Source: Thereva unica (lineage: Eukaryota > Arthropoda > Insecta > Diptera > Therevidae). From it: DNA of 64,000 nucleotides. Both the position numbers and the translations under genes were made by a program. This document shows, in pieces, positions 20,141 to 53,336 of the stretch. The notes below the pieces were generated by a model. The model saw only the letters and a list, made by a program, of their open reading frames with translations, was not told the DNA's origin and made no database searches. The stretch covers positions 157,185,850-157,249,849 of the forward strand of contig OX465283.1 in the NCBI GenBank assembly GCA_949987705.1, in the 5' to 3' direction. The first letter of the stretch is position 1; every line of letters starts with the position of its first letter.

Positions 20141-20291
20141 CAGACTCTTGCGCCTGTGTTACTGGGATACACTCTGTGCTCGCTCTGCTTTATTGTAGTG
20201 AACACAGCTGGTGGTATCTCAGTTGCACTTTGTGCATTTTCTTCATGCAGCCGAAACGAGGGAGGAGTGGACCGGGGCAGCGTGCAGCCAG
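20110..20291 (+). other. candidate pri-miRNA exon containing mir-317
   Basis: A block from an acceptor (TTTTTGTTTCAG ending at 20109) to a donor CAG|GTGAGT (GT at 20292-20293) encloses the mir-317 hairpin. If used, the hairpin would be exonic, which is uncommon but known for insect pri-miRNAs. This is inference from splice motifs only. Confidence 0.35.
20148..20240 (+). ncRNA. microRNA mir-317 hairpin
   Basis: The 3p arm at 20199-20223 matches insect miR-317 as I remember it over all 25 nt (seed GAACACA, then GCTGGTGGTATC). The 5p arm at 20163-20184 starts TGGGATACAC and pairs with it, leaving a loop of about 14 nt. In flies miR-317 is transcribed with miR-277 and miR-34 in this order, and both follow on the same strand here. 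The mature RNA is loaded into Argonaute and represses mRNAs in the cytoplasm. A consensus donor CCAG|GTGAGT lies at 20291-20292, so the hairpin probably sits in or next to an exon of the primary transcript. No insertion disrupts the hairpin. Hairpin limits are estimated from pairing. Confidence 0.97.
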
Positions 20292-20299
20292 GTGAGTTG

Positions 20300-20717
20300 C
20301 TCAATTTGTATTTGTTTTTGTATTTTCAATTAAGTTTCTTCAAGCAAGATAACAAGATATTCCTAAAGATATGCAAAGGAGCTTCTTTTTTAATAAAATT
20401 TTAAATCGGGTCTTTTCTTCTGTGATTGCTTTTTCCGGTGTAGTGAAAGAAGGTATTTTCTTATTCTATGACAGGCGAAATGATAAAGAAATCTTTTTTT
20501 AAATATCAGTTGATATACAAATGGAAATTCTCCCATCATGATAGAATGAACACAGGTCTTTCGGTTATTTTGATCCATTCAGAACTTTGTTACCGAAAGC
20601 AGCCTTCACTTAAAGATTTTTTTATATAAAAACCAAGCCTAGTAATCACCGTCTGTCACAGCGGTCTGTTCATTTTGCTATGTTTAGTAAGCTTAGTTTG
20701 AAGGATAAAAAAGAAAA
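20300..20717. other. no gene recognised
   Basis: AT-rich intergenic or intronic sequence downstream of mir-317; no motif recognised. Confidence 0.4.
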
Positions 20718-21165
20718 TCAAAGGTACGAGGGCGTTTGGGTGTGCTCGAGTAGATGTCGATGAATCTTACGTTTGAAATCTAAGATATTGTGCGAATTCG
20801 GAAATGGTGACTGTACTGTGGGTTGTTCTATTTTTGAGAGGGCTGCTAGATTCCTGCTGTAGCTAAAAGAGTCCATGGAGGCACAAAAAGGTCTATCGCC
20901 CATGAGTGATGGCGAGGTTATGCACCTTTGTGCAGACATGCCAAGGTGATTTTTGAGACGCCTCTCCAGATGGACGAGTTGTATTTAAGACAGGGCCGAT
21001 AGGACTTATAGATTGCAGCCGGGAGACTGGGAAGAAAGGAACTTGGAACTCGTAAAATACCCAAGGCATTGGGATGCATTTTTTACGATTTGTAATGTGA
21101 TCATTCGATCGCAGATCTTCATTTAAAGTTACCCCTATGTAGAATGTTACGAGTTGGGTCAACTG
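20718..21165 (-). pseudogene. CR1-like LINE C-terminal fragment
   Basis: The minus strand reads FYIGVTLNEDLRSNDHITN near 21150-21090, matching the LGVTLNEDLxWxxHI block after the RT core. It then reads PTVQSPFPNSHNILDFKRKIHRHLLEHTQ (about 20815-20730), the final CR1 block of the type (P..N.HNK.DF.R.IHRHLL). Frames are shifted between the two. The RT catalytic core is not included. It represents a 5'-truncated, decayed copy lying within 0.5 kb downstream of mir-317. Confidence 0.7.
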
Positions 21166-21364
21166 TTAGATTCTCATTGTCATTGCTGCTCGTACGGCCT
21201 CTTGGTGGCGTGCCGCAATAGTTTTCCAGCAGCTTTCTCGTCGTGTCCAGCATACACAACGGTCTGCAAGACGTTGATCAGTACAAATCTCGCGGTCTTC
21301 CAGCAACCAGGAAATTCGCGCGCCTTCAGACACGAGTTGTGCATCTCTAGCAAAAGAGAAGAAT

Positions 21365-22615
21365 GACTGAAAGCTTCTTCTTCTATTTTAACTGTTCTAC
21401 AACCGGGATCCGGTCTTGGCCCCAAGTAACTGTTCTCTCCACCGGTCCCGGTTCTAAGCCGATGTCACCCAGTTTGACATACCTAAGCTCTGAGCGTCCT
21501 GGTCTACGCCGTCCTTCCAGCGTAAGTTGGGTCACCCTCGCTGTCGCACCCCATCGGTTTTATCGGACTGGAAGTTACTACCCTCAATATTTTTGCTGGA
21601 AGGCCGGAAAAGACTACTCACCATATCGTCCAAAGTAGCCGGATCCCTGGGGCACCCTTGATGTTCCTAGCTTCTTCGTGACGATCCTGTACCCGCATGA
21701 GAGCCTTCCAGCATTTTCGCTGCCTAAACTTGATGGCTTGTTTCAGAGATATCTTGCCCGCTTGGAACGTTGCGGCCAAATAGGCTTTGTAGATATCGCA
21801 AACTTTCGCCCTCTGTACCTGTCGACGGAGACGCATGCACGTCCTGGATTTCTGCGATCTCGTCCGTCCACTAGTAAGCAGGGAGGCCTCGACCCGTATC
21901 TCGGCACTGCTTCTTCACAAGTATTTTGTAACATTTGCATTTTCTGTGCGATCATCCGTTCTACTGAGAGCTGGCCGCACATCACGTATCTGGAACATGT
22001 ACTGGTGATCAGTGTAGTCTTCGATCACCTTCCAATCTACCACTGGTGTTCGTTGCTGCCAGGTGTTCGTTGGCTAGGAAGATATCTGAGATGTGACCCT
22101 ATGGTCCGGCCTTCTGAAGGCTGGCGTGGAACCGGTGTTGCGCACCATTAGCCCAAGCCGGGACATCATGTCACATTCGATAACGCGTTGAAGTCACCAG
22201 CGACCTCCTGAAGTGCGTTCTCTGGACTATCCAGTTTAGAGCCATATTTTGTAGGATAGCGGCAAATAGGATCTACGCGGAACTCAACAACGTTGGCTCG
22301 ACATTTAGCAATACATTAAAATGCCCATCAAGATTCCTTTCAGATAATCATCTTCCGTATCTGCAACGTCGTCATACCACGAATGATTCTTTTGTTTAAC
22401 TCCTGCGCCTGGTGCGGCATTCGTTCTCTGTATTGTACGAGATTTTTCCTCCAGGCTTCCGTTTTCCGTCTATTTTATTTTTTTTTTTTTATTTGTTCCG
22501 ATGTCCACAACTTCTTCCTAATGGGGTCAGCAGTACTAATGACAGTATTTTTAAGCCGTGCCCAGCTCCCGTCTTTTGATAGCTCCCGCGACCTGAAAAA
22601 AATATAAGTATGTTA
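21365..22615 (-). pseudogene. RTE-B retrotransposon copy, internally replaced
   Basis: The 3' end (21365-21640) shares the block GGGATCCGGTC...CTGTTCTCTCCACCGG and the encoded RPDPGCRTVK with RTE-B copies at 24790 and 58966, and ends in a GAAGAAG tail. The 5' part (22235-22615) matches 25690-25960 of the other copy, for example TTTTGTAGGATAGCGG and TCCTGCGCCTGGTGCGGC. Between them lies an unrelated R1-type fragment (21640-22230). The RT core is absent, so this copy is dead. Confidence 0.7.
21640..22230 (-). pseudogene. R1-clade LINE endonuclease/linker fragment
   Basis: On the minus strand, beginning near 22215, the frame reads VAGDFNALS, then RNTGSTPAFRRP and SQIYLANEHL with stops. This resembles the R1/I-type endonuclease pattern GDFNAWSxxWG, NxGxxPTFR. 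Downstream come PVYWWTDEIAEI-like sequence and LRRQVQRAKVCDIYKAYLAATFQAGKISLKQAIKFRQRKCWKALM, the R1 linker. RT is not included. It interrupts an RTE-B copy in the same orientation, so it is either a nested insertion or a rearrangement. Confidence 0.65.
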
Positions 22616-22619
22616 TGAA

Positions 22620-24785
22620 TAGACACATTCAACTTCCAAGACATTGTAGTAGTTGCTTAAATTCCACCGAAATAAGCCAAATTAGTAAAATTCTAAGCAC
22701 TTTTTGAATAGTTCACGCATGCGCTTGTATTTTTTACTTGCTTACACTTCACCAAAAGCGTTTTTATGATTTTTAACGACTCCACGATTAGTTTTATTTA
22801 CAAAAACTAATTTTTACTACACTAATTAAACAAATAGTGACCAGGTTCTATTAAATCGCAAAAAAACCCTTCAACAATCGACTAACCTTAACACCCAATG
22901 CGAACCAATTGACAGAACTGGTCTAAAAATGTCAAATAAGTGTTGGCAACTACTCTAGAAAATATTTTTTCAATGACCTTCTCACGGGATTTCAATACGA
23001 GAACGTTTTAGTGCGTTTGTTTAATAATATTTACAGTAAATAGTTTTGTAATTGCAAATTGGGGGGTGTTTTTATAAATATATAAAAACTAATCGAATGC
23101 GCGGCTTACGAAAGATCAATTTTACTTTCCCCAAACCATTTCCATACATTCCATCAAGGTCCACAGTCTGTTCACTTCGTATATTTTACCTGTTCCTTGC
23201 ACGTAGAACGTTTTCTTTAGACAGTTTGAATCATTCATTTCGTCTTATGCAAATATATAATCCTCAAGGGCACACTATCGTCTCCCAATATTGAACCCGA
23301 ACGCATATTTTCAACAATCAAGAAAACTTACAGGAATTCATAATATTCAAGGTTTTCTTTTTAGAATTTCTTTGCAGCGTCTTTTTTACTGCATAGGAAT
23401 GCAGTAAGTGTGACGAATTAGTTCAAAACTCAGTAATTAGGGTAAATTATCTACTAGATAGTAATTAATGCGATTTACTGACACAAAAAAACAACATAAC
23501 ACGTCACGGCAGACCTCAAACAGCGAGAAGCATAACAAAAAATCTGCACTCGGGCACTGCACGCATTTCAGCTTAGACGAAGATTCAGACTGGAAAAATT
23601 GCTTCCAAGACGTCTCGCGTCTGAACGAAGAAAACTTGGCGTCTCCTTTCAAAATCATTTTTGCTGAATCGATGAACAATCGCGGCTTTCATACAGCGAG
23701 AAAATTATAATTAGATAATTCACCGAGCGTTGTTAAAGTATCTAATGAAGAAAGGAGGCTGTCTGTCAAGCCACCCTGATGCCCATGCGCGCTGTCATTG
23801 AAGTCGCCTCAAATCGCACCTTTAGGGGCCTGCCAAGAACACGAGTCAAGTTTATCACAAATCGACGAAATGCATCCAATTTTGCTTGTGCCGAGGGGCA
23901 GCAACGGGGGGGGGGGGGCTATGGTCTTAGCGCATTGTGGGGTATTTTTTGACTGCGTTTTTATGTATAAATTTAGGCTGACATAGTTTCGTTTCGGAAT
24001 CTAGTTCACCGAGAGAATGGGCGAACGAGACTTTAGTGATTACCGCATCTTTTGCCTTTTTTAAAATGAATTTACGTAACGACTTCTGATATCGATTCTT
24101 GGTAATCAGGTGCATTGCGATGAATTTTCCTGTTCATTTAGCAAGTGGCAAAGGTATTTAGGGGACAAATATTTTGTATGGGGGATGGGGGTTAATTCAA
24201 TGGTGATTTTAAATGTTTATAAACGACTGATTAAAAATGTATTTTGGTGCAATATTTCACTGTTAAGTGATATATTTAAATGCTGGAACGACAAAAACAG
24301 CTCAGCAAAACGAAAAAATGATTTTATGCAATATTCGCGTATGTAAAAAATAGCAGTGATGTGATAAATAGATGTTCAAATAGGTCGAAATTGCTTTTCA
24401 TGTTGGGCCTAGAGTTTGACTCCCAATTTTTCTATTTAATATACGAATTTGCTAGACTTATGGTCCGGTCCGTCTACACCATCCATCCACTATGTTCACA
24501 TTATCTACATATTCAAGCAATTGTACAGAGTGTACATATTGCTATTGACGCATTTATCTGCACTGACGTTTTCCTTATAACACAATCTAGGGCGAAGATG
24601 CAAAAAATGGGGCCAGTCTTTGTCGTATTTCGAACTGTTACTGGATTTTTTCGCAAGTGATTCGAGATTGAGATTCGTTGCGCATTCTATCAGTTGCACC
24701 AGCTTTGGGGCCACCTAATTCTGATAAGATCTCGATCGAGAGATCTCTCTTTTTATAGAGTCATATCCCTGTTAAAATTCGACAA
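22620..24785. other. no gene recognised; poly-G tract
   Basis: About 2.2 kb of mostly AT-rich sequence. A run of 11 G lies at about 23906-23916. The frame at 23468-23710 is 80 codons but has no recognisable domain and weak coding character. I cannot assign a repeat family. Confidence 0.4.
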
Positions 24786-24789
24786 CTAT

Positions 24790-26430
24790 CTTCTTCTTCT
24801 TTAACGGTTCCACAACCGGGATCCGGTCCTCGCCTCTCGCAACTGTTCTCTCCACCGGTCCCGATGTCATCCAGTTTGGCATCCCTAAGCTCTGAGCGTT
24901 CTGGTCTACGCAATCCTTCCAGAGAAGGTTGGGTCTCCCTCGATGTCGCACCACATAGGTCTTATCGCAGAGAACTTTCCGAGCAGGCTCATCTTCACTC
25001 ATACGTTCCATGCTATTATCGGCTGCTACTATTGACCCAAGGTAGGTAAATGATTTTATCACGTTAAACTCGTGTTCCTCTACCTTGATTGTGGGATCAA
25101 TGTTAGGTGTTTTTGTAGGCGAGGCCACCATGTACTTTGTTTTGCTTTCGTTAATGTGCAGTCCCAGATTTCTTGCCGCCTGCTCAACCTGAGTGAAATC
25201 TTCTTGTACAACTGTTGCTGTTCTTCCAATGAAGTCATTGTCATCTGCATAGGCCAGTAATTGGATGGACTTGTGGAAGATTGTGCCTCTTGATGTCTCA
25301 CCTGAATCTCGGATAACTCTCTCCAACGCCAAGTTGAAAAGAAGGAAAGCCAGACCGTCCCCTTGTCGGAGTCCATTATAGATGTTGATTGGTCTGGACG
25401 GTGTCCCGGATACCTTTACTGTGCTTGTCACATTGGTCATGGTCAACCTACATAGTCTTGTCAGTTTGTTGGGGATGCCGTATTCTCTCATGGGTTTGTA
25501 GAGTTCTACTCTGGCTATGCTATCATAGGCGGCTTTAAGGTTTATGAAGAGATGTTGAATTGACTTTTTAAACTCTAGAAATTTTTCCATAGCCTGCCTC
25601 AAGGTGAAATTCTGATCGGTCGTTAATTTGCCTGGGCTGAAGCCACACTGGTATTGGCCTATGATGTTGCTGGCGTATGGGGCCATTCTGTTTTGTAGGA
25701 TAGCGGATAATATCTTATACACGGTACTCAACAACGTTATAGCAATTCATGAAAGTGTTCTTCCCATCGCTCCAAGAGGCCTTTAGGATCGCTGATCAGA
25801 TTCCCTTCTTAGTCCTTGCAGTATGTGCAGCTTGGTGTGGATTGCGTCATACTGTGGACTTTTTAGTAGTAATCCCGCTCCTGGTGCGGCCGTCGCTCTC
25901 TGTACTGTTTTAGTTCACAGACGAGATTTTTCTCTCAGGCTTCCTTTTTTCGTCTGTGAATTGTCTTTGTTCCTTTTCTGAGCTCTTTATAGTTCTCTTC
26001 GCGTGCCCGTGTTTTCTGAAACTGCTGCATTGCTCGGCACGCAGCATTCTTACGTTCACTTGCAAGCTTGCATTCATTATCGAACCAGTCGTTCCGATCT
26101 CTACGACTTCTGCCTAAGATGGAATCAGCATAAGATTTATACTTTGGTAGGGTATCGCCCAGATGTTGTGTAGCTCGCGTTCTGAACATTCCATGAGAAA
26201 ATTCGTAAATCGTTTTGCCTTTTTCGTTGCCGCGGTGGTCTTCGTTGATTCCAGAGGCATGATGCTCGTTCCGTAATAATTGTTTTTTCCGGGTGAGGTT
26301 ATTAGCCTCACGCCAACCTTACTAGGAATCCTGCCTATCCGCTCTCATAGAATAGTTACCAGTAGCGACAGCCACAGAGATTATGATCGCACTTCCATCA
26401 GTCCGGGTTTCGCAGAGAGCATAAAATTGG
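24790..26430 (-). pseudogene. RTE-B retrotransposon with internal deletions, RT core mostly open
   Basis: A 320-codon open frame (25734-24772) contains TVYKILSAILQNRM, QCGFSPGKLTTDQ, HLFINLKAAYDS (the usual Asp is Asn), NGLRQGDGLAFLLFN, LAYADDNDF and GLHINESKTKYM. It then jumps to the GRPNLLWKDC and DRIPVVEPLKKKK end, so the region after the RT is partly deleted. Upstream, ILGRSRRDRNDWFDNEC (26130-26080) is the linker, while most of the endonuclease is missing between 26290 and 26150. Positions 26280-26430 match the 5' leader seen in + orientation at 43715-43850. The missing domains and the Asp-to-Asn change make it inactive. The 3' tail is a GAAGAAG repeat. Confidence 0.85.
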
Positions 26431-26567
26431 TCATTGCAATTGAGAAATGCATAGAAACTTTGCAGTGTCTTTCCTCTTCGAGTAAGTTTTCCAGAGTTTG
26501 CTCTTCAGGTTTTTGCTAATGATTGACATTTCATATAACAAATTCACAACTTTGACATTTCCCATTT

Positions 26568-26677
26568 GGGGTCGTACACATATTACGTAATCATCAAAGG
26601 GGTGGGGGGTTGTCAAGAATATGATTACGCTTGATTACTTGGGGTGAGGGGGTCCTTGGCATATGATTACGTAATCA
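26568..26677. repeat. left terminal and subterminal repeat block
   Basis: From the outside inwards: the terminal repeat ending in ATTACGTAATCA, a G-rich stretch (GGGGTGGGGGG), GATTACGCTTGATTAC at 26623-26638, a second G-rich stretch, and the palindrome TGATTACGTAATCA at 26664-26677. The same order of parts recurs in the same orientation at the right end. Confidence 0.85.
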
Positions 26678-26941
26678 ATCTAAAAGCGTTTCTTTACTGA
26701 TTTTTTTTTTTTTTTAAATTTCGCGCGCAAATGTTCCAAATAATGATTTTCTTTCTAAATTCCCTTTAAAAACCTAAAATGTCTCGAATGTCTCGAAATT
26801 CCCGGAATATTTAGCTCGACACGTCTCGAGACCCGAGACTTTAAAAACCTCGGGTCCCTAGTCAGTACAAACCTACGTTTTGATCAAGTGTTTATGTTGT
26901 GACGATTTTATATTTAAGACTTTGTTAATCGAACAAAAACA

Positions 26942-29577
26942 ATGGCCAACCGGGATGTTCTCTTTCAATCGTTTTTTAAGTCTTATCAAGCACGATTCCC
27001 CGAAAAAAAAGGGAATGTGTGTCAAAAAGAAGTGACATTGTTATGGAAAACGGGAAAAGAGGAAAAAAAAAATCCTGGCGAGTTCGAAAAGTATATTCAG
27101 CATTTAATTTCGTCATACGAACAATATTGTGCCCAAAGGAAAGCCAAAAACACGTTATTTTTTTTGACGACACAAAAGGTAAAGGAAACTAATATGTATA
27201 TTTCGGACTATATTTTTCTAAATTTTTTATGCCTTTTTTCTAGAAAAGGGGTAGTATAAATACTGCGGAAAAAGATGATTCGATTGTGCAGACAAAGGAC
27301 AGTGATGATTCTGCTAAAAATTATCCTAACGCAGCGATCGTAGACGATTTGCCCGAATCAGGCAGTGACGTCAATGTTCCAAAAAAACTCTTCGCTAAAC
27401 CTGCACAAAAAAAGGCGGAAGAAAATATTATTTCTTTGACAAAACAAGTGTCTGCATTGAATGATGCTTTGAATTCTATGCCATCCGAAGAAGTCAGATT
27501 GGAGCTTGAAAAGAGTAGAAGAGCTTTGGAACAGGAGCAGAAGAGCCTCAAACGCAAAAAACAAATCGCTGAAGCGCAGCGAAAATTTCGTGATATAAAG
27601 AAATCCAAAATGTCTGCCCTTGTTGAGGAAATCCCAGAAGCTCAAAAATTTGTGAAGAAGCATCCATCGGCTGGAAGACCCTCAATCGAAGAAAATCAGC
27701 CCTTTCTCCATAAAGTTATCATGGATATTGCCATGTTTGGGAGTGCTGCTGATGAACGAAGACGCAGCAATATTGTGAGGAGTGTTAGAACTTTATCAGA
27801 TCTTCACCAAGAGCTCGAAACTCAAGGTTTCATTTTGAGCAGGTACGACGTCTTTATTTCTCGTTTAACATCTAAATTTCATGATTCATATCAATGATAA
27901 TTGATATAACAGATTAAAATATCTTCATTTAATTACTACAATTCTTTGATTTTTAAATTAATTACTGTTCTACAGGACTTCAACGTATCTACGTTTGCTT
28001 CCAAAAAATTCGAGAACCATCGAAGGACAACGACATATTAGAACCGTTCCTGTAAAACTCATTCGTGCACAACCAGAGCAACATCGTCATCATATTGATA
28101 GTCGTTTTGCGACTGCGTCAATTAAATACTTGGAAGGTTTGGCTGCAGTTCTCGGTCCGAAGCAAGTTTTTTTTCTTTCGCAAGACGACAAAGCGAGAGT
28201 ACCAATTGGTCTCACAGCAGCTAATAAACAAGCTCCGCTCCTGATGCACGTGGAGTATAAAGTCAAGCTCCGGGATCATGATTGGGTGATTGCCCCAAAG
28301 CATAAATTAATCCCATCAGTTTACGGGGGCGTGACTGTAAATCCTGAAGAAATTGGAAATCCTAAGGCTGTTGGCTATTCAGGTCCCACTTACGTTGCGA
28401 TTAGGAGTGGAAAACATTGTTCTTCGACTGCAGCTAGTCATGCAAAAGATTTTAACACTTTGTTAAATCTTGATGCCTTCAAAAGTATCGCGAAGACTGA
28501 ACAAGGAGAAGTCAAACCAGTTGTTATTATGACATCTGATGGTGGACCAGATGAGAATCCAAGATATTCCAAAGTTATTTACTATGCTATTGAACATTTC
28601 AAAAACTATAATCTTGATGCAATTTTCATTGCGACAAATGCACCAGGAAGGAGCGCATACAACCGAGTCGAAAGAAGGATGGCTCCGTTGAGTCGCGCAT
28701 TAGCGGGTTTGATTCTTCCACACGACAAATACGGTAGCCACTTGAATGATCAAGGGAAAACTGTAGATGCTGTTTTGGAAGAGAAAAATTTCCAAAACGC
28801 GGGAGAAGTGTTAGCTACAATCTGGAACGAAATGCACATTGACGAATACCCTGTGACCGCACAATACGTGCTTCCCAACGAAGCAGAGAAAGAGCTGCAA
28901 GAAACAGATCCTTACTGGTATGAAAACCATGTTCGCGAGAGTCAATATTTCCTTCAAATCGTGAAATGCCGTTCTGAAAAATGTTGCGGAAAGTTCAGAA
29001 GTGGTCTACTGAAAATCCTGCCAGAACGATTTTTCCCACCACCTGTACGTGTCACTCAGAGTGCTGATGATTTGATTGTTGGAAATGATGATAAAAGCCA
29101 CTTTCTCGACCTTGTGACTCGTAGAGCTCTCGATTTGCCACTGAATGAAGACAAGAAGTATTTACAGGTATAATTTATTAAATACTATTTGGAAAATTAC
29201 ATAATTTGAAATAGTTGCATTAATAATTGTTTCGTTTTAAGGTTCGTTATGATCTGTTTTGTCCATCCATGGCAACTCAATTGCAGAAACGCATTTGCAA
29301 AATTTGTGGTTTGTACTTTGCTTCACAAAAGTCTGTCAAGCAGCACTCAAAAGTTCACAAGAAAGGACCCTATGATTTGAATGACACTCGGAAAGAAATT
29401 GTGCGTATAACTGCACGACGTAATAGCGAAGTCCTCGTCATTGAAGAAAATTCGGAATCGGAATCAGAAAAAGACATTGTTATGCAGCCGGGCATGAACC
29501 AGACGGTAGATATTCCAATCATCGCCGATTTGACAGAATGGCTCAAAAATCCATTTGAAGCTGTAAACGAAAATTAA
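26942..29577 (+). CDS. DDE-like transposase with C2H2 finger, four exons (787 aa)
   Basis: The probable product cuts and joins the element's own ends in the nucleus. Exons 26942-27178, 27244-27842, 27976-29167 and 29242-29577 join with GT-AG introns of 65, 133 and 74 bp. All phases match, and the start context AACAATGG is good. Residues 134-195 look like a coiled coil rich in E/K/R. Residues 222-285 (GRPSIEENQP...RRRSN...LSRTSTYLRLLP) look like a DNA-binding helix-turn-helix. The RNase H-like core has candidate acids in FLSQDDKARVPIG (Asp349/350), IMTSDGGPDENPRY (Asp467) and APGRSAYNRVERR (Glu511). The C-terminus has one C2H2 finger (C695, C698, H711, H715). No stop or frameshift occurs. Family membership is not certain; the domain order is read by eye. 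Confidence 0.9.
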
Positions 29578-29667
29578 AGAATACAAAAAAAAATCTAAAA
29601 ATGTAATAAAAATAATCAAAAATACATGCAAAATGTAGTTTTGCTTCACCAGTGGAATTAATTTCAA

Positions 29668-29787: not shown

Positions 29788-29790
29788 TTT

Positions 29791-43900: not shown

Positions 43901-43979
43901 CGTATTTTAGAGTATTGGAGGTTAATTTGCTTGGAAGTCGCATTTTGTCGTATCTTTCGCTGAGGGGATGGAGCGGCTC

Positions 43980-44970
43980 TATAGATGCACTATAAGTGCA
44001 ATTATAGTGCACTTCTGGAGCTCTTTTGGTTTTGCAGCGAGGGATGTGACGGAGTGTGACTCCAAGTGTTTTAAGTGTGGAGCTGCATCGCTTTTGCAGT
44101 GAACGACACTTGTTTCGAGAGGCCAGGACCGGTTCCCCGAAGCAGGCCTTTCAACTGCATTCAGGCAGATCCCCAGTGTCTCAAAAGACTCAAAAGAGGC
44201 TAACGAAACCACCTTGCCTTCCGGCTCCAAGGGCCACCAGCAAGTGTGAAGCACCAAGAGCAACGCAGCGCCGAAAGAATCCTTGCTCGATTCGAGGTAG
44301 TTGCATAGGGTGAAATAACTGAGAGGCAACAAGCCGTAATAAGGTGGGCGTGAATATTTCGCAAACTGGCAACCCAACACCAGAGCTCCGGAGGTCGCTT
44401 GAGGAACCGAATCACCCTTAGGCTAATCGTAGTAGGAAAAGTAACAATCTACTTCCCCTACTACTAAAACCTTTAGCCAAGTGCTGGAAGATCAGATCGT
44501 GATCGCCGTTATCGTCGGAAGTAGTTCAGACGGCACCATTCTGCCTGATAAGTGCAGGAAAATTGAGGTATGCCTCGCGACGATTTTCCTTCCAGTTCGT
44601 CAGGAGCATCGTGCCACTGCTCCTCACTATCGCAATGGCAGATGGCGTCAGAGCCGCGTGAAGCTTTTCGCATGTGCCGATCACAGATCTGTCGATCTCT
44701 TGAAAATAACTATATCCAGAATCGGGGAAGGCTGGTCAGGCTCTAGCCTCAAGGTTGTTATGAGGCAGGAGATCCCGAGTCAATGGAAAGCGCGTTGCTG
44801 CATCTCAGCAGAACCAGCCGAACCTCAGGCTATTCTGGATATTATTCGGTTGAGTAACCCACAACTACATGCGTCATCGTGGAAGCTTACGAGGATCCGA
44901 AAAAGAATGGTAAGGAAATTTCATAGGAAATGGTCCAAGCTTTTCAATTTTGTAAAAAAAAAGTATTGAT
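43980..44970 (+). pseudogene. retrotransposon ORF1 with DUF4780-like domain, partly open
   Basis: The last 162 codons (44481-44969) are open and read LEDQIVIAVIVGSSSDGTI at the start. SLKVVMRQEIPSQWKARCCI, ILDIIRLSNPQLHASSWKL and a basic end follow. This matches the DUF4780 pattern: an IAVIDxSxxDG start, WxGxxLxVVxxxEIP, then ILxxLxxxNPxLxxxxWxxxR. No ATG opens this frame. Upstream (44056-44313) another frame is rich in basic residues and proline, as expected for the disordered N-terminal part of such ORF1s, and ERILARFEVVA then ITERQQAVIRWA add typical linkers. The likely role is nucleic-acid binding for a non-LTR element. It is disrupted and has no neighbouring ORF2. Confidence 0.55.
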
Positions 44971-44974
44971 TAAC

Positions 44975-46345
44975 TACGTATTTTTCAGAGAAAAGGGTGG
45001 TTTAAGTTGAAATTTTAGTGAAATAATTTTTTTTTTACTTTGACGACTCATGACTCCGGACGTTGGTGGGTTAAAACCTTGACTTTTACAGTTTTAGATA
45101 GGTGGGAGTATTCTGCGTAGATTGTTGCCCTATTCATGAATAATAGTCACAAAAATACAGGGTAATATGTAAACCTTTACCAAAAAAATTTCAAAACGCC
45201 CTAGCGGCTAAACCGTTGCAATTTCCTATTTTGACTTCGTTGCCACAGCTCAAAGTGAGGTTATGTTCGAATGTACACATCAACTTAAACCCGGATCAGT
45301 TCAATAGACCGTTCGGTTACAGCACATAAACACTCTCACAAATGAACTGCTCCCTCCAGAAAAATGCATGCACATATCATAATGGTCGAATTTTCTCAAA
45401 ATGATCGTTAGTCTACATAACGGTGTTTGCCGTCAGAGTTACAAAATGTCCATTTGGAATAGTATTCAATAGACCGGCAACAATTCCTTATGTTTGTCTA
45501 TTTCAATGAAATTGATCTACCCGGGGCAAACATATTTAACATTATTTTAAAACGATCTTAAAAACCAGAACATTCCCTTAACAATATAAATTTCATCACT
45601 ATATCTAAAATCGCACGCATGGACTGACTCTTTCTTGATAGAAGCAATTTCTATTAATTAATTTTGTATTTTCACAAAATTTTCAATTAAAAATAATTAT
45701 GCTTAATTATGACACAATTTAAAACTACCAGATTATAACTGTCACTTTTAATGAATACCACACAACAATATGTACTGTTCCACTTTCTATATGCATTTTC
45801 ACTGTTCTAAATTCCACAGTTTTGCTTGTTTATAAAAACCATTAAGATGAAAATGTGCTCTATCGGACATTCATCACGCAATGCTGTTTTAACATTTTGT
45901 GCAATGAAATGATCTCGACTTTCATAAAACTTTTCAATAATTAAAACTCATTGTTGAGATGCGTACACAGAGTGCGGTTGAAGTTATCCCCTGCGTTGGA
46001 TACACGAAACGCTTTCAGATGAAGATGAACTCACGCACTGTCAAAATAGTACGAAATTCATTTTAGACATTTGGTGGGATTCTAGTTGTTGTGTTTTCTT
46101 TATCTAAAAAAAAATTGAAATAAAGTTATGCTAAACATGATATGCATAGAATTTGAACTTGTTTATTCTTGTATTTATTTCAATTTACTTTTATTAAATT
46201 TGTTCTGGTCGTAGCCATGTTGTTAAAAGAGCGATATGTTACAACCACACTCGGATTAAATACACTGAGTGCTGGAGGCTCACACATGGTTTGGCAAATC
46301 TTATCGGTTTCCTGTGCCATATGGTAATACAATGAATGGATATTG
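44975..46345. other. no gene recognised
   Basis: AT-rich sequence with homopolymer runs. No domain, element end or RNA identified. Confidence 0.4.
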
Positions 46346-46349
46346 ATTT

Positions 46350-46620
46350 TAGAACTAGTTATGTCTGTCGATCTTCAGAGCTACACATTCGTCCATGGCT
46401 ACCTCAGCTTGTGTAAAACAATGCCTTAGAAATCTCCAGCGTCTTAGATATCGTAATCGACAGCCTATACCAATTCTCAAATCAGTTTTCGAGCCGCCTG
46501 TATACCAAGCCATAGATCCAAAAGGTGCGATCCATACTACCGGCCTTTTACCTGCAGTCATCAAAGAACTCCCTTGCATTAACAATGGCCCACTAGAAGA
46601 ATTTTGATGGCAGCACAAAC
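46350..46620 (-). pseudogene. LINE RNase H fragment
   Basis: The minus strand reads GSMAWYTGGSKTDLRIGIGCR and, after a frame change, FTQAEVAMDECVAL. These correspond to the first and second RNase H motifs of R1/Jockey/I elements (YTDGSKT..G.G and FQAEx.AIxEC). The catalytic Asp of YTDGS is Gly here. It is a short dead fragment, 1.6 kb upstream of mir-277. Confidence 0.6.
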
Positions 46621-46624
46621 TTTC

Positions 46625-48220
46625 AGGCTTAATATTGTAGAGAATATGTTAGGTCAGGTAACAAAGATCAATAGTTGGAAGAAACTTTGAATTAGTAGAC
46701 TAAATTTCATTCTGGTCTGCTAATCTGGAAAGGAAAGTGACTTTTTCTGATACAATTTTCTACGCATGGCTGATCAATAGGATGATCGATGGATTTTATT
46801 TGAAGTATCTGCTTGGACGATGAATTTCGTTCGAGACATTTATCTTCCGCCATTTTTCAAGTTTGGAAATAAACAAAAGTCACATGGAACAAAAAGGTGA
46901 TAAATACGGTGGATATTGTAATAGTTGGAACTTGTTTTCATAATTTTCGCCTTCGAAACTGCGGAGGTATGCGGTCGCCCATTGACTTTCCCAAGTTAGG
47001 AAACTTTCTTGATGTTCATCCGATATATGTACATGATTTCATGTGCATCTCAAAAAACTGCGACCAACACTTTGTCGATTGAATAGATCGACCGTCTTTG
47101 TCTTCTACGCAGCCGCCACTACTTTTGAAAGCAATGAATAACTCGCCAGAATTGGCTGGCCTTATACGATCGTACACTGAACAGACACCGAACGAACCAA
47201 CTAGGTTTATGGGGAAGGCGTATGGGCAGACTATTTCAAACGATATTTTCAGCAGAATTTTGACAGCTCCTGCGGTGCTAGGACACGAATTCAAAAGATA
47301 ATTTCAAAAAGCAACACCAAAAAGCCTATTAGTATTGACTAGTTCGTTCGTTGGAGTTCGCCCGAGTAAAAGCTCTTTCAAAAAACTTCATCAGACTTCA
47401 AAAGAGAATTAACGAACCTAAGTTTAGTTCGCTCAGCCGCTTATGTAAATTCATCCATTGAACTTTTGAATTACTCCGCCCAATTTGATTCATATGTAGA
47501 TTAAATCGTCATAGATTTTGTCCAATCAGTTCGAAGGTAGTTACTTCGCGGCCACGTTTAAACTCATTTACAAGCTCATATGAGCTTATGCGTCATGAAC
47601 TCACTGATGATCCCTTTCGACGTTAAGTCTTTTGTTTAATCATCGCAAAACATTCATTTTTCATAGCTGACAATTTAACAGGAGTCTAGTGACAGTTCAC
47701 GCTTACTGAAAGCTTATATTGACGCTGCAAGCGTCATCTCGTTAATTTTCAAAGGACCGATATAAAGAAACAAGCAATATCCCTTAATGAATATTAGTTA
47801 TAAAACGCACAATTATTTATCATTAATTATTTTAAGTATTATAGTACATTCACTCTAGTTGGATAGATACACAAACTTATGTTAAGAAACTTTTTTTGTA
47901 CAAAATCATAGTCCCAGCAATTCGCTTTTTTTAATCAAAATCAATCTTCGAAATCTAGAAACATTGCTTCACGTTTCCCCCACCAATAATAAATAGTATG
48001 TAATAATAATGCGAATATTAAATTCTCACAATATAGTCACACAATTGTACCACCAAAAAAATAATTTATCACTAATATAATTATTGTAAAATTTTCGAAC
48101 GTTTTAAGTTGTTGCTAATATTTGCTGAATATAAAAAGGCAGAGTTAAAATAAAAAGTTACGGTGGCGTCGTTTATGATTAGTGGACGTTCGATGAGTCG
48201 TTTGGGTGCAAAATACATTT
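46625..48220. other. no gene recognised, upstream flank of mir-277
   Basis: No transposon is recognised. Increasingly AT-rich towards the mir-277 hairpin. Confidence 0.4.
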
Positions 48221-48229
48221 ATTACATAA

Positions 48230-48320
48230 GTTTTGGAGTGCGTGTCAGGTGTGCATTTACATTTTTGTATATTTGGTTGTAAATGCACTATCTGGTACGA
48301 CATTCCATGACAGACACTCT
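48230..48320 (+). ncRNA. microRNA mir-277 hairpin
   Basis: The 3p arm at 48280-48302 matches insect miR-277 as I remember it over 23 nt (seed AAATGCA, then CTATCTGGTACG). The 5p arm at 48241-48261 (CGTGTCAGG...) pairs with it. The inner stem is GTGCATTTACA/TGTAAATGCAC with a loop of about 16 nt. The downstream ACATTCCA also agrees with the fly precursor as I recall it. In Drosophila miR-277 acts mainly on branched-chain amino-acid catabolism genes and is loaded largely into AGO2. The 5p arm carries base changes relative to Drosophila as I remember it, which fits a related but different species. Flanks are unique AT-rich sequence. Confidence 0.98.
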
Positions 48321-48324
48321 GCGG

Positions 48325-49285
48325 TTAAATTAGTCTTAAATATTTTTATTTGAATTTTTAAATTTTGTAATTGAAAAAAAAAGAAAACATTTTTTTTAAT
48401 ATATTTTGGAAATATTTCTTGTCTTTTATTTCATTGATTACACCAATTGTTCGTTGTGTTTGGAACGCCTTTTTACTTAACTACGTTGTAGAATTAAGAA
48501 GATGGTACCAGAATTGTTCTAGAGGATTCGATTGATAACATCATGTAAAGGGTTTACAGAAATAAATTGGTCAATGGACTCGGAATATTGGACTCACTTG
48601 ATCCAGTCGTCCTGTAGAAGTTCGGTTCATGTGATAGACAAAGTGGGCTTTGCATAACACTAGATCGTGCTATCTTTGTAGAGCTTTCTGTGCTAATTTC
48701 AGAAATAAAATTCTTAGCCCGAAACAGGCACAAATTGCATCAAAACGCCTATTTGACACCCCAATGAGATACAGTACGCTTGAGTTAAAATTCGTATTTT
48801 CCAAATGCAGCCCGCTGCAGGCACGTATCAAAGACGCGCAGAATAGTCCAGGTGAAGCGCGATACCCTCAAACTTTTCTAAACTAAAATTTAAAATGAAA
48901 ATAATAAAGATAGATTAGAGCCTCGTGCGTAAACCAATAGTGATACTTTCAATATTAATGAGACACATCTAAAAACGAATTAAATCGTATTTATATTGAG
49001 TATCATGTTGATCGATTACGACACACATTCATACCTCTAAGAGTGGCGTGCATAACTCTTTCGCGGAAGCATTTTAAAATGTCTGTGCCTGTAGCAGGAG
49101 CGTGCATGCGCAGTGTGCCAGATGTATTTTTTAATTTTTTGGAATCTGGAGCATCTAGAATCCCTCCAACGGTATCAATTTCTAGTCGACTCTAGTCGAT
49201 TCCTCCCTTCTCCAACGAGGGTTTAGTAGATTTGCGGCCGTGCCAATGATGCCTGCAAAACAGTTTTTGGATGGATTTGTAGAGG
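48325..49285. other. no gene recognised between mir-277 and gypsy remnant
   Basis: AT-rich sequence with short frames. GTCGACTCTAGTCGATTCC (49186-49203 region) is a small imperfect direct repeat of CTAGTCGA. No family assignment. Confidence 0.4.
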
Positions 49286-49289
49286 ATTG

Positions 49290-49760
49290 CACATTTGCTA
49301 TTACACCTGAATCTCAAGAAGACCTCATTGATTCCCTGTATGTTCTCAGCAAACAGATATTTGCTTCAGAAGCATGATTCCTTAAATTTTCATGATAATA
49401 AATCTCCAATTGAAGCTTTCAAGCTTCCGAATAATAGATTTGACCATACCCATATGGTTATAGTGGGACCCCTACTCCCATTTCGTGGATACTCTTATAT
49501 CTTAACGATAGTCGATAGATTCCCACGCTGGCCTGAAGCATGCCTAAATCGAGACATGTTAGCTTCAACAGTGGCAAAAGATTCGTCACAGAATTCGTCC
49601 CACTTGAGATCACAACAGGTACGCAGCTCAAATCGAAACTGTTCAATGAAGTTGCTAAATTACTCTAATTACTCATCGAATTCGGACGACCACCTATCAT
49701 CCACAGGAAAACGGGATGGTTAAACGGCAACTAAAAACATTCTTAATGGTGAGGGACAGT
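49290..49760 (+). pseudogene. Ty3/gypsy integrase fragment
   Basis: The + frame reads FHDNKSPIEAFKLPNNRFDHTHMVIVGPLLPFRGYSYILTIVDRFPRWPEA. This has the DIVGPLP and LTxVDRFxRWPEA motifs of gypsy-type integrase (the first catalytic Asp lies in IVDRF; the preceding D of HIDIVG is lost). After a frameshift, IEFGRPPIIHRKTGW corresponds to the R..AYHPQxNG motif. Protease, RT and LTRs are not found nearby. It is a dead integrase scrap lying between mir-277 and mir-34. Confidence 0.8.
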
Positions 49761-49938
49761 AAGGCAATACATCCCAGACAACCTGTTTAAAAGAATGTCT
49801 ACGTGTCAGGAGCCCTAAAGAACGCCTAGCACGTTTTCATACGAGCCGGTCGTGTTCGGAAACTTTTCGAACCTCCATATGAAGTAATCAAACGATTTCG
49901 AAAACATTTCGTTGCCAAATTGAACGGATCGAATAATA

Positions 49939-50167
49939 GGTGGTATTCTCGTTGGCGGGTGACGTGACTACGAAGTACGCGGTAGTATGAAACTGTCGAT
50001 AGTAACACACGTATCGAGGAATATGTCACTTCACACGTAACCTTGCGACAATAAAATACGAAATTTGTCGATTTGCTCGCCAGAAATCTGTTAGACTAAC
50101 AATGAGAATACCAATTTGAGTTCGAAGTGACACAATTGTCACGTCACCCGACAACGAGAATAAGGCC
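49939..50167. mobile_element. short inverted-repeat MITE (about 229 bp)
   Basis: TATTCTCGTTGGCGGGTGAC (from 49944) is inverted as GTCACCCGACAACGAGAATA (to 50162), allowing two differences. GAGAATACC, the complement of the left tip, also occurs internally near 50104. A related end (CATCACTCGACAACGAAAAT) lies alone at about 55738-55757. I could not define a clear target duplication, so the superfamily is open. It has no coding capacity. Confidence 0.6.
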
Positions 50168-50169
50168 GA

Positions 50170-51240
50170 ATATATTGAATGGCGATGAAGAAGAATCTGC
50201 GTTTAAACACGATCATTGACATATTGAAGAATCATCAGGATTTTCATTTTTGCAGCTGAAATATATTATTAATTTAGTTTGTGTTAATGTAATAAAATAA
50301 CGTTTAAAAAATAAATGATAATTAAACTAAAACGTTCTTTTGATAATTTTGATAAATAAAATAAAAAAGTACTATATAATGTTTACAAGATGACGGAGAC
50401 ATCAATTCCAAATGGGGACGTTCTTTGAAATATGTTCAGCTCGTGATTTTTTTGGTATAAATGATCGGCCAAATCAATCTTCAATCCAAAGATGTAATGT
50501 GATCTAAAACCATTCGATTTTATTTTATTTTGAAAAGTCGAGTGTATGCCAATAATCCACAAACAGCAAATGAACAATACTCAAGTTGCAATTCGTGAAA
50601 TAACTTCAGCAACATGTCGAAAAGTTAATGGAAATTTCGATATTCGAATTGATTGATGCCTGCAGACGCATTCGGGATGGACATTGGTTTGTTCAACGTA
50701 TAATTGAAATGGAATGGAAAACGGCTTGAAAATTTGCACAAAGTTTGCGTTTTAATAAAATTAACATGTGGGGCACATAGAGAAGTTAGAGAGAAATTGA
50801 CTTACAGTAACTCAAAAATGTGTTGCAATATTCTGGATATTATTGGTTTTGTAACAATTATTCAAATTATTTGTCCTAAACTAATTACGCAAAGATTGGA
50901 CGCTGGATGACTAGGATAATGTAGTTTTTAGTAAAATAAGAAGAAGAAAAGCAAAACAACTATTTCAATTAATTGGCAAAGGCTGTCATGTTCCTACCGT
51001 CTAATTTTTGGCTATTCCCGAAACTTAAACCGCTGCGAGGACGTCGTTTCAACAAGTTTTTGAAGAAGGGATAACTTTGAAGGGGATGAAATAAATTTAG
51101 AAGAATCATAAGCCGTTTGTGTTTTATTTAAAAAGTTTTACTAATTTTCGATCGCGGTAGATCAAGTCGACTTTATCGTAGTCTATAGTGTGAACCGTAA
51201 TGGTTTTTTGAAGCTGTAGAGAAACTAAACACCTAGTAGA
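50170..51240. other. no gene recognised
   Basis: AT-rich sequence; nothing recognisable until RTE-C similarity begins at about 51245. Confidence 0.4.
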
Positions 51241-51244
51241 ACTG

Positions 51245-52230
51245 CCGAAAATTGCAAAGGTGTAAAGTCAGAATAGATGCAGCAATCAGAATAAATAATA
51301 GAGGGTTAAGGCAAGGTGACAAACTCTGCTGCTTGTTATTCAAGGCGGTCCTGGAAAGTGCGGTTATATCTTTCACAAACCGGCGACCAATATTCAGCAT
51401 CGTAACGACGAAAACCGACGACGCAAATTTTATTAACGTTGTTACGACGAAAACTCAAATAGAGAATCACCTGTCAGCCGATAGATTAATGCAAGAAGTT
51501 TACTTTTGAGGGTTTTTGCCACTGCTATACGGTATCAGCTGATTTTATTTTTATTTGAAAATTAATAAAAAATGTTACGTTTCCAGATAAGCCGATTCAA
51601 GACTGTGGCGGGTGAACAGCAGCATAACAAGGATATAAATATTTTTTTAAATTTTCGTTCAGTGACATACTTCACTACAAATCCACTTGTTAGAACGGGA
51701 AAGTTATAACAAAAGACAATGATACGTCATTGTATCAAGAAAAACCAAATTTAAACTTTACACAATATTAATAAGAAGGTCTTACTATAGGTTTCGGAGT
51801 GTGGGCATTGATGAACGCAGACGAAGCATCGGAGGAATGGTTCGGAAGTAAAATCCTGCCTTCGGTTTCTAAAGGAATACAGATAGATGGCATTTGGAGA
51901 AAAAGATACAACTCAGAGTTGTTTGAAACCAAATCGTAAAATTCCGAATTGGTCAAAGTGATCAGAATAAACAGACTAGAGGGATTGGTCATGCCGAACG
52001 AGGTACGGAACGGAATTCGACAAAAATAGTGCTGGGGAAAGGTAAAGACAAGAAAATGGAGGGTAGAGCACCCTAAGAAAAGATATGTAGACTACACCGA
52101 AGAAGAAATAAGATAATTAAGAAAAGAAAACTGAAAAAGACGGGCCAGACATCGAAAATCATGGAGGCGAGCCCTGGAGTAAGCCATGGCCAACCAATAG
52201 GTTTTGGACCTCTGGATGATGATGATAGAT
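51245..52230 (+). pseudogene. RTE-C retrotransposon copy, decayed
   Basis: Starts within the RT: INNRGLRQGDKLCCLLFKAVLES (the GLRQGD motif). After deletions it continues with RKRYNSELFETK (about 51900-51935), RINRLEGLVMPNE and HPKKRYVDYTEEEI. These align with RRYNSELYEI, KINRLRWIGHIQ and RPKKGYIDDVEDDL of the RTE-C copy at 16510. It ends in LWMMM, that is the GATGATGATGAT tail at 52213-52225. Frameshifts are numerous. It lies in the mir-277 to mir-34 interval. Confidence 0.7.
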
Positions 52231-52234
52231 ATTA

Positions 52235-53064
52235 GTAATATGTTTTGCTATGGAAGAAAATAAAATAAAATTTCAGAGCTTAATTCCTTTTTACATTTGC
52301 GCCTTGGACTAGATTCAATTGCAATAGAACGCTAGTTAGTTACGCACGCACTCCGCAATATTCAGCAAATGAACGTCTGTAGCTGAAGAAGTCAATTGCG
52401 CACGCAAAGTGAATTATTGACAGCACTCTTAGTTTATAGTTAATATATTTTATATTTGTCATTTTTAAAACAATTCAATTTTAAATTCAAAATAAAAATG
52501 TGAAAAATAAATGCAAGGATCTGTTTTTCTTCTTATTTAATTTAACTTTTAGATGATGATCACAATTGAATCAGGAAGATTTGAAGGTACATAGAAGATG
52601 AAGAAGATAAAATTATTAAAAATTATTATTCTTTTTATTCAATCAACAACAAAACTAATCTTTTTATCAAAAATATTATCTTGCTTATAAAAGGCTTGGA
52701 TAAATGCAGGACTTAAGAGGAAATGTAGCAAAGACAAGATCAGAGATATTTTCTATAATTTTTAAAGTAAGAAAATATTTCCCCGAAAACTATGCAAATA
52801 CAAGCAAGATGTATGCAATTTCGAAATAATAACAAAATATGAGCGTTTTTTTTGTTTATGATTTTACTTGTACATTGCATCTCAAAAATGGAAATGATGA
52901 TGTCTAAATATCGTTATTCTCTGCAATGCAACAATTTAAAAATGCCTTAATAGATATTAAAGTATGTATGTATAAATAATAAAATAAACAGTTTTTTCGC
53001 AGCTTTAATATTTTCATTTGTTTGCTTAATATATGTATTCAATGTAAATCTTTATTTTTCACAG
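52235..53064. other. no gene recognised, upstream flank of mir-34
   Basis: AT-rich sequence without a transposon match. It ends in the acceptor CTTTATTTTTCACAG (AG at 53063-53064). Confidence 0.4.
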
Positions 53065-53189
53065 AAATTGGCTCATAATTTTAAAATTAAAATTGGATTT
53101 GTCCTGAAAACATATTTTTATTAAAATTCATTCTACGCAATTTTCAGTGATTAAAATTGCAATCCAAGGGGACAAGGTCAAAATATCAG
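53065..53189 (+). other. candidate non-coding exon directly upstream of mir-34
   Basis: The block is bounded by acceptor TTTATTTTTCACAG (ending 53064) or, alternatively, CGCAATTTTCAG (ending 53147). On the other side is a perfect consensus donor ATCAG|GTAAGT (GT at 53190-53191). The mir-34 hairpin begins about 55 nt into the following intron, an arrangement expected for an intronic miRNA in a long non-coding host RNA. No coding frame of note. Confidence 0.5.
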
Positions 53190-53239
53190 GTAAGTAATCA
53201 AATTGCTCTTTTTCGCTGCTAAAAGAAAATTCAATTTTT

Positions 53240-53336
53240 GCAATACGGCTCTGCGCTTTGGCAGTGTGGTTAGCTGGTTGTGTGCATTTAAACAACAGCC
53301 ACTATCCGCCCTGCCGCTGCGACAAGCTTGATTCGA
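53240..53336 (+). ncRNA. microRNA mir-34 hairpin
   Basis: The 5p arm at 53259-53282 matches fly miR-34 as I remember it over 24 nt (seed GGCAGTG, then GGTTAGCTGG). The 3p arm from about 53296 (CAGCCACTATC...CTGCCGC) pairs with it, leaving a short loop (GCATTTAAACAA). The bases after the 3p arm (GCGACAAGC) also agree with the Drosophila precursor as I recall it. miR-34 is the ancient bilaterian member of the cluster; in flies it is linked to neuronal ageing and ecdysone/juvenile-hormone timing. The loop differs from Drosophila while both arms are conserved. It lies 5 kb downstream of mir-277 on the same strand. Confidence 0.98.

Follow-up and report, generated by a model that had tools for sequence, protein, structure and literature searches.

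A 33-kb mir-317/mir-277/mir-34 cluster in Thereva unica with splice donor consensus sites beside mir-317 and mir-34

Results

Three conserved hairpins on one strand

The window, i.e. the complete 64,000-nucleotide stretch of Thereva unica DNA analysed here (contig OX465283.1, positions 157,185,850 to 157,249,849), contains three matches above the Rfam gathering threshold (cmscan, 4227 families), mir-317, mir-277 and mir-34, all on the + strand (Table 1). Each match covers its profile completely: mir-317 with 68.9 bits (cut-off 56; profile positions 1-93 of 93), mir-277 with 79.7 bits (cut-off 43; 1-90 of 90) and mir-34 with 59.0 bits (cut-off 53.4; 1-72 of 72). Relaxing the search to E<=1 added nothing but antisense matches to mir-277 and mir-34, below cut-off and at the positions of these two hairpins. 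The cluster spans 33,173 bases, with 27,991 bases between mir-317 and mir-277 and 4,938 bases between mir-277 and mir-34. The gene order 317-277-34 is that of Drosophila, and judged by its sequence the locus is orthologous to the mir-317/mir-277/mir-34 cluster of flies.

Rfam, folds and coordinates thus bear out the identity, strand, order, hairpins and spacing given in the first-pass annotation, and the letters re-read at the mature arms agree with it as well. At miR-277 and miR-317 the sequence is letter for letter that printed for the beetle Diabrotica (PMC9170749), and the printed silkworm miR-34 shares 24 of 25 letters with the corresponding stretch (PMC2435238). Folding, which had been proposed as a check, gave in each case one stable hairpin whose stem holds the mature arm: -39.7 kcal/mol for mir-317 (z -5.45), -38.6 kcal/mol for mir-277 (z -6.17) and -37.8 kcal/mol for mir-34 (z -4.34), an equally good fold being reached by 0 of 200 shuffles of each. 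When both strands of the window were scanned in steps of 5 for 90-nt single-hairpin folds of 22 or more pairs, and overlapping folds were merged, mir-34 ranked second, mir-277 fourth and mir-317 fifth. The most stable hairpin (56626-56715) overlaps an 11-base tandem repeat, has no Rfam match and was set aside.

A single place in the 910-Mb genome exceeds the Rfam cut-off for mir-277, and a single one does so for mir-34 (54 and 63 best candidates scored, respectively); a 161-nt mir-317 probe likewise has one place. None of the hairpins has its 300-nt flanks copied anywhere else in the 264 kb examined. Searching the viral collection with the exact mature miRNA sequences, and the prokaryote collection with exact mature miR-277, gave no match.

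Table 1. Coordinates of features in and around the cluster (window numbering)
Feature	Position	Strand	Basis or remark
mir-317 precursor	20151..20235	+	Rfam RF00720; miR-317-3p 20199-20223
mir-277 precursor	48227..48313	+	Rfam RF00730; miR-277-3p 48280-48302
mir-34 precursor	53252..53323	+	Rfam RF00456; miR-34-5p 53259-53282
5' splice-site consensus CAG|GTGAGT	20289..20297	+	last exon base 20291
5' splice-site consensus CAG|GTAAGT	53187..53195	+	last exon base 53189
Candidate exon A, long form	20109..20291	+	putative; whole mir-317 hairpin inside
Candidate exon A, short form	20251..20291	+	putative; acceptor just 3' of hairpin, mir-317 then intronic
Candidate exon B	53065..53189	+	putative; directly 5' of mir-34
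Putative 32,773-nt intron, exon A to B	20292..53064	+	splice-site model; mir-277 inside
Possible further upstream exon (weak)	14588..14843	+	rank 3 of 93 exon-like pairs
Reverse-transcriptase element fragment	24775..26291	-	RVT_1 6.6e-27 at 24775-25746; in putative intron
Broken TE-like element	27244..29574	+	three open pieces in different frames; one weak C2H2, below cut-off
Reverse-transcriptase fragment	35995..36627	-	RVT_1 6.4e-11
DUF4780 ORF	44445..44966	+	PF16012 1.2e-11
Dispersed repeats between mir-277 and mir-34	49384-49927; 51185-51357; 51735-52241	.	genome copies
HEXIM ORF	98.8 kb	+	flank Pfam scan
CBM_14/collagen frame	142-151 kb	-	flank Pfam scan

Mobile elements in the gaps

As stated in the first-pass annotation, the cluster is the sole clear host locus of the window; this holds within a Pfam scan that took in 40 of 51 stop-to-stop ORFs with 100 aa or more, and three further ORFs. 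Sub-cut-off matches to DUF3584, C2H2 and V_ATPase_I and a weak match to Glyc_hyd_38C_2 were rejected as chance or remains of transposable elements. A search of 14 of the 20 flank loci gave no further Rfam family. The HEXIM ORF of the flank points to a brachyceran fly.

The two gaps had been described as filled with at least ten transposon families. Mobile elements are indeed present, but this number was not reproduced: we find about four coding elements plus repeats. The reverse-transcriptase fragment at 24775..26291 has at least 39 other genome places (40 scored, itself included), its copies being 87-93% identical up to 25741 and 80-82% at the far end, and of 7993 candidates scored, 894 are related to the 403-aa piece of the broken element at E<=0.001. 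For the repeats between mir-277 and mir-34, at least 39 other places (40 scored), about 68-82% identical, comprise 5 for 49384-49927 and 34 for 51735-52241. Domain-free repeats are also present in 20.3-53.2 kb. As a lower bound, at least 15% of the first gap and at least 10% of the second have another copy inside the 264 kb. The gaps would have grown through mobile-element insertion, and the 33 kb that hold the cluster are probably intronic DNA with old jumping genes.

Two perfect splice donor consensus sites

The perfect 5' splice site CAGGTRAGT occurs only twice in the window, both strands searched, and both copies lie on the + strand, one 56 nt 3' of the mir-317 match and one 62 nt 5' of the mir-34 match. 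According to splice matrices not trained on the genome studied, the donor near mir-34 ranks 1 and the donor near mir-317 ranks 2 of 6729 GT sites, 2 bits ahead of rank 3. Shuffled windows hold 0.48 copies of the motif on average, and 6 of 100 hold two or more. Under random placement on two strands the chance that both donors fall on the + strand, inside a hairpin or no more than 63 nt from one, is 2.8e-5, and the chance that they do so beside different hairpins is 1.75e-5 by the same uniform-placement model, with the 63-nt limit chosen post hoc. By proximity, mir-34 would belong with miRNAs coupled to a 5' splice site (miR-211 type), the top-ranked donor consensus lying upstream of it. Judged by consensus and position, both donors are very probably real. 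A pair of identical donor contexts 55 kb and 63 kb ahead of the window sits in a duplicated segment and was therefore excluded from the gene.

Candidate exons

Two acceptors could precede the mir-317 donor, at 20109 (rank 186 of 7083 AG sites) and at 20251 (rank 66), neither with a YTRAY branch-like site in the preceding 60 nt. The four candidate acceptors rank 28, 66, 186 and 333 of 7083, none of them outstanding, and such a branch-like site within 60 nt is found for one of the four, at 53065 (TTAAT at -39). Among 93 exon-like acceptor-donor pairs in the 264 kb (both strands), exon B ranks 2 and the short form of exon A ranks 8. First-order Markov sequences of 264 kb (20 simulations) produce a pair of exon B quality 0.35 times on average and one as good as short exon A 1.2 times. 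Of the ten best pairs, four are on the - strand, two more lie inside the upstream duplication and four are on the + strand between -20 and +54 kb (P 0.04, weak and post hoc). The best pair of all, 61 nt at -19957 to -19897, would make an attractive upstream exon and shows no link to the cluster; the first 448 of 700 bases of its surroundings are without a second genome place (40 scored of 238 candidates). Exon A was rejected as coding: one frame is open through all 60 codons, but a stop follows in exon B.

Because strong donors lie 3' of mir-317 and 5' of mir-34, a spliced noncoding host gene is suggested. That a single intron joins exon A to exon B appears moderately probable from the splice-site model, and a primary transcript of more than 33 kb is plausible. 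Polyadenylation-signal hexamers (AWTAAA) on the + strand number 58 in the first gap, 15 of them with a U/GU element, against 49.6 expected from crude composition, and 24 in the second, 7 of them with a U/GU element, against 8.4 expected on the same crude basis.

Discussion

The Drosophila melanogaster locus, with the lncRNAs Peony/CR45054 and CR43459, has the same miRNA families, direction and noncoding surroundings, and Peony has an intron and a large second exon upstream of miR-317. In T. unica, by comparison, the cluster extends over 33 kb that contain mobile elements, and putative donors stand by mir-317 and mir-34. Fmr1 lies at the Drosophila locus (PMC5125713), whereas within 100 kb of the cluster described here a KH probe gave only chance-level tblastn matches (best E 1.7, 264 kb); a genome search with Pfam Tudor_FRX1, an Fmr1 marker, gave no match, with controls equally silent, and is uninformative. 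A table for Lepidoptera (Grapholita, with Danaus as reference), as we read its flattened form, groups miR-34 and miR-277 at 10 kb and adds miR-317 only at the 50-kb setting (PMC5291412), so the wide mir-317 gap is not unique.

The mobile elements nearby might suggest that the three hairpins are only look-alikes, either pseudogenised or of transposon origin. Unaltered mature letters, full-length covariance-model matches and one genome place per hairpin leave this reading next to no probability, and on these grounds the identity of the three as mir-317, mir-277 and mir-34 is practically certain. In honey bee, the three miRNAs likewise lie together in one intron, intron 3 of the Rpb8 orthologue (PMC2394756), which is a precedent for nesting in a protein-coding host. 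Here the only Rpb8 match is an open frame (141 of 141 profile positions) elsewhere in the genome, on contig C2, the window being on C3; tblastn with an Rpb8 probe found nothing in the 264 kb, and the clear non-TE genes in the scanned flank frames (20 of 99) are HEXIM and CBM_14/collagen. Rpb8 is thereby rejected as the host, and a coding host in general, already disfavoured, is highly improbable. The donors, in turn, might be chance matches or unused, with the hairpins in unspliced transcripts: a consensus match does not prove use, only one of the four acceptors has a branch-like site, and shuffling did occasionally produce two such 9-mers. Yet that they should stand beside two of the three hairpins, on the correct strand, is improbable within the uniform model and its post hoc limit, and acceptors lie 41-183 nt upstream; we regard chance or disuse as very unlikely.

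More weight must be given to the number of transcription units. The first-pass annotation took it as established that the three miRNAs are one co-transcribed cluster in Drosophila, which is too strong, as the matter is disputed (PMC6066331, PMC11482908). Zhou et al. (2018) describe five isoforms that differ in where they start and end, one of which spans mir-277 alone, and attribute the Drosophila differences to alternative start and end sites, not to splicing (PMC6066331). Carney and Shcherbata place miR-317 in the lncRNA Peony and derive miR-277 and miR-34 from the ncRNA CR43459; they argue that miR-317 and CR43459 are not co-expressed in testes and ovaries, and report that in a miR-317 knock-out CR43459 is unchanged though Peony rises, with separate start sites (PMC11482908). 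On the model of the Drosophila gonads, T. unica could thus have a Peony-like lncRNA with miR-317 and a CR43459-like RNA with mir-277 and mir-34, the latter driven by a separate promoter within the 28-kb gap. The independent behaviour of Peony and CR43459 (PMC11482908), a Drosophila start site located after mir-317 and an end site located before mir-34 (PMC6066331), and the hexamers in both gaps argue for two units. Against them stand the long TSS1/2 isoforms, which dominate in Drosophila testes and ovaries (PMC6066331), and the strong donor right 3' of mir-317, which suggests that transcription and splicing carry on past this hairpin. Two units appear somewhat unlikely here; one-unit and two-unit arrangements can coexist.

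We favour a spliced + strand noncoding host gene whose exon A would end 56 nt past the mir-317 match and whose exon B would end 62 nt before the mir-34 match, so that mir-34 opens the next intron and mir-277 lies inside the 32.8-kb intron between the two exons. The hairpins would be processed in the usual way, by the established miRNA pathway of Drosha/Pasha followed by Dicer-1. U1 bound at the two strong donors would promote cropping of mir-317 and mir-34, as extrapolated from mammalian work, while mir-277, far from a comparable donor, would rely on other promoters or on plain intron processing. The intronic hairpin of miR-211 in melastatin, like mir-34 here, has a 5' splice site upstream, and mutation of that site lowered cropping and Drosha recruitment while mutation of the 3' splice site did not (PMC3197686). 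That system is mammalian, with a protein-coding host and coupling tested experimentally, whereas coupling here is predicted only. The donor-flanked pair is also the pair whose cropping Zhou et al. suggest may be more efficient than that of miR-277, and the miR-317/miR-34 ratio is similar across all tissues and stages they show (PMC6066331). By analogy, donor-helped cropping of mir-317 and mir-34 is possible rather than probable. The explanation taken whole, an orthologous cluster in a spliced host with donor-aided cropping and gaps expanded by transposable elements, seems reasonably likely to us.

A more far-reaching version, one splice-organised gene in which exon borders, and not promoters alone, set miRNA output, is rather doubtful. 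In such a gene the two optimal U1 sites would raise mir-317 and mir-34 cropping together, mir-277, deep in the intron, would be free to be driven alone, and the alternative acceptors at 20109 and 20251 would switch the mir-317 hairpin between exon and intron. Lying between two candidate acceptors, mir-317 resembles exonic or splice-site-overlapping miRNAs such as miR-198 in FSTL1 (PMC11347158), and its cropping would therefore destroy or pre-empt the spliced exon; a difference is that its hairpin does not overlap the putative donor. Endogenous splice-overlapping miRNAs leave splicing undisturbed, according to work cited in PMC11347158.

In Drosophila, members of the cluster have roles in ageing, ecdysone signalling and innate immunity (PMC6066331, PMC5125713); they are expressed unequally, for reasons still debated. 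What is new here is the donor consensus beside mir-317 and mir-34, and we offer the splice architecture as a hypothesis. The adjacency of two hairpins to the strongest splice signals of the window may affect the yield of each miRNA. A 33-kb version of the cluster, in which the hairpins and two donor consensus sites stand out, is a natural experiment on the sequences that the locus needs. If the donors are conserved, a splice-organised gene would explain the tight coupling of miR-317 and miR-34 and the separate behaviour of miR-277 in Drosophila.

Results

The cluster is a real, orthologous and ordinary microRNA cluster in an expanded locus. In a whole-window Rfam scan, matches at the gathering threshold comprised exactly three families, on the + strand and where the first-pass annotation had put them, with its mature-arm coordinates correct to the single base for all three microRNAs. 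Up to E 1, the only extra matches were antisense mir-277 and mir-34, below cut-off. On folding, each hairpin beat 200/200 shuffles, and among single-hairpin 90-mers with at least 22 pairs (overlaps merged, both strands of the window) mir-34, mir-277 and mir-317 ranked 2, 4 and 5 in stability. The most stable one overlies an 11-base tandem repeat and has no Rfam match. The letters of miR-277 and miR-317 are identical to the beetle sequences printed in PMC9170749, and miR-34 shares 24/25 letters with the silkworm sequence printed in PMC2435238. The window occupies C3:157185850-157249849. Across the genome (910,112,553 bases, 930 contigs) mir-277 and mir-34 each have a single place above the family cut-off (54 and 63 candidates scored); a 161-nt mir-317 probe has a single place.

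Features of the cluster region in window coordinates (L, loci in the flanking sequence)
Feature	Position	Strand	Remark
mir-317	20151-20235	+
mir-277	48227-48313	+
mir-34	53252-53323	+
Donor CAG/GTRAGT	20291 (last exon base)	+	56 nt 3' of mir-317 match; rank 2/6729
Donor CAG/GTRAGT	53189 (last exon base)	+	62 nt 5' of mir-34 match; rank 1/6729
Acceptor	20109	+	rank 186/7083
Acceptor	20251	+	rank 66/7083
Acceptor	53065	+	rank 28/7083
Acceptor	53148	+	rank 333/7083
Reverse-transcriptase ORF	24775-25746		in gap
TE-like frames	27244-29574 (27.2-29.6 kb)		in gap
Reverse-transcriptase ORF	35995-36627		in gap
DUF4780 ORF	44445-44966		in gap
Open frame, 1007 aa	2998-6021	-	endonuclease, reverse transcriptase, DUF6451
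Tandem duplications	10197-10481, 10653-11000		142 and 182 bases, ~2 copies each, 91-92% matches
Most stable hairpin	56626-56715
Duplicated segments (L005/L006)	~-63.2 and -55.3 kb		7.85 kb apart
Exon-like stretch, 61 nt (L010:43-103)	-19957 to -19897	+	rank 1/93
HEXIM-like ORF (L015:4805-5668)	~98.8 kb	+
CBM_14/collagen frame (L019:8414-10000, L020:1-7377)	~142-151 kb	-	at least 2459 codons

The donor motif CAG/GTRAGT occurs at two sites in 64 kb, both strands counted, beside mir-317 and mir-34. With a generic donor matrix these lead all 6729 GT sites, rank 3 scoring 2 bits lower. At least two such motifs occurred in 6/100 shuffled windows, which counts against the donor pair. Under uniform placement on two strands, with the distance set post hoc, the probability that both lie on the + strand, in or at most 63 nt from the hairpins, is 2.8e-5, and that they lie beside different hairpins on that strand 1.75e-5. 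No ratchet-like sites were found on the + strand.

A YTRAY branch-like site lies within 60 nt of acceptor 53065; acceptors 20109, 20251 and 53148 have none within that distance. Scoring of exon-like pairs (acceptor-donor distance 30-300 nt) across the 264 kb of window and flanks gave 93 pairs, 64 on the + strand, with 53065-53189 at rank 2 and 20251-20291 at rank 8. Since pairs equalling these arise at means of 0.35 and 1.2 per simulation (20 first-order Markov simulations), the pairs alone are not compelling; unlike them, their position adjoining the hairpins is. The top 10 comprises six pairs on the + strand, two of them inside a far-upstream duplication, and four on the - strand. The duplicated segments have identical 400-base contexts around CAG/GTAAGT and further splice-like sites, and are a duplicated gene or element. 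The top-ranked L010 stretch has a strong acceptor and donor, lies in surroundings that appear only once among the genome places scored, and is possibly an upstream exon of the microRNA host.

The gaps had been described as filled with at least ten transposon families. Within the 264 kb, other copies account for 15% of the mir-317-to-mir-277 gap and 10% of the mir-277-to-mir-34 gap, and the 300 nt on each side of every hairpin are free of such copies; mobile elements in the gaps are therefore supported, also by the domain ORFs, whereas the count of ten is not. Pfam was run on 83 frames open for at least 70 aa and gave one further match, a weak Glyc_hyd_38C_2. The main piece of 27244-29574 has 894 relatives at E<=0.001; among the best 120, named ones come from insects, molluscs, bryozoans, a rotifer and a crustacean, and most lack a Pfam domain. 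This protein family has a coil, C2H2 and a DGGPDEN stretch that reads as transposase-like. For the element at 24.8-26.3 kb, 39 of the 40 places scored lie elsewhere in the genome; identity is 87-93% over the main stretch and 80-82% at the far end. The repeats between mir-277 and mir-34 look older, because their identity to 39 other places among 40 scored is ~68-82%. The 1007-aa frame is a non-LTR-type element.

The Rfam scan of the flanks (14/20 loci) gave zero families at threshold. Pfam on 20/99 flank frames (at least 130 aa) gave HEXIM and a CBM_14/collagen frame, otherwise mobile-element domains. Of the frames scanned, the HEXIM-like ORF is the closest clear downstream host coding gene. 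Behind four unnamed proteins, its highest-placed named relatives come from Ceratitis (71% identity, 58% of query) and Condylostylus (67%, 54%), and the named ones next in order are flies too (best 120 of 350), which points to a brachyceran fly. The other frame has at least nine chitin-binding CBM_14 domains and collagen repeats.

Discussion

In the honey bee, Rpb8 is given as host of the cluster (PMC2394756), whereas here it lies on a contig other than the cluster's. Wide spacing is not unique, because with the Danaus reference it takes the 50-kb setting for miR-317 to group with miR-34 and miR-277 (PMC5291412, as its flattened table reads).

Co-transcription in Drosophila had been called established; the wording is too strong, because Zhou et al. 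(PMC6066331) describe, besides long isoforms, one with mir-277 only, and Carney and Shcherbata argue that Peony is the source of miR-317 and, in testes and ovaries, is separate from CR43459 (miR-277, miR-34) (PMC11482908). A primary transcript of >33 kb is thus a prediction here. Measured against a crude composition estimate, poly(A)-signal hexamers are about as frequent as expected in the first gap (58, with 49.6 expected) and more frequent in the second (24, with 8.4 expected), so that a transcript end between mir-277 and mir-34 would be allowed.

If both donors were used, mir-277 would lie inside a 32,773-nt intron (acceptor 53065), and mir-34 would start 62 nt into the next intron. With acceptor 20109 mir-317 would be exonic; with 20251 it would be intronic, with 15 nt between the end of its match and the end of the intron, and the usual branch-point region, ~18-40 nt upstream of an acceptor, would fall within its hairpin. 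With either acceptor, a transcript cropped at mir-317 could not also keep a stable spliced exon ending at 20291.

In the miR-211 study (PMC3197686), cropping of an intronic hairpin is promoted by the 5' splice site of its intron and not by the 3' splice site. The Drosophila pattern of Zhou et al., a similar miR-317:miR-34 ratio across the tissues and stages they show with both perhaps cropped more efficiently than miR-277, suggestively matches the predicted donor placement; they attribute the differences to alternative starts and ends. Titles and abstracts of the open-licence papers listed in literature searches yielded no treatment of splice donors beside these hairpins, and the arrangement would be worth a quick comparison with other flies.
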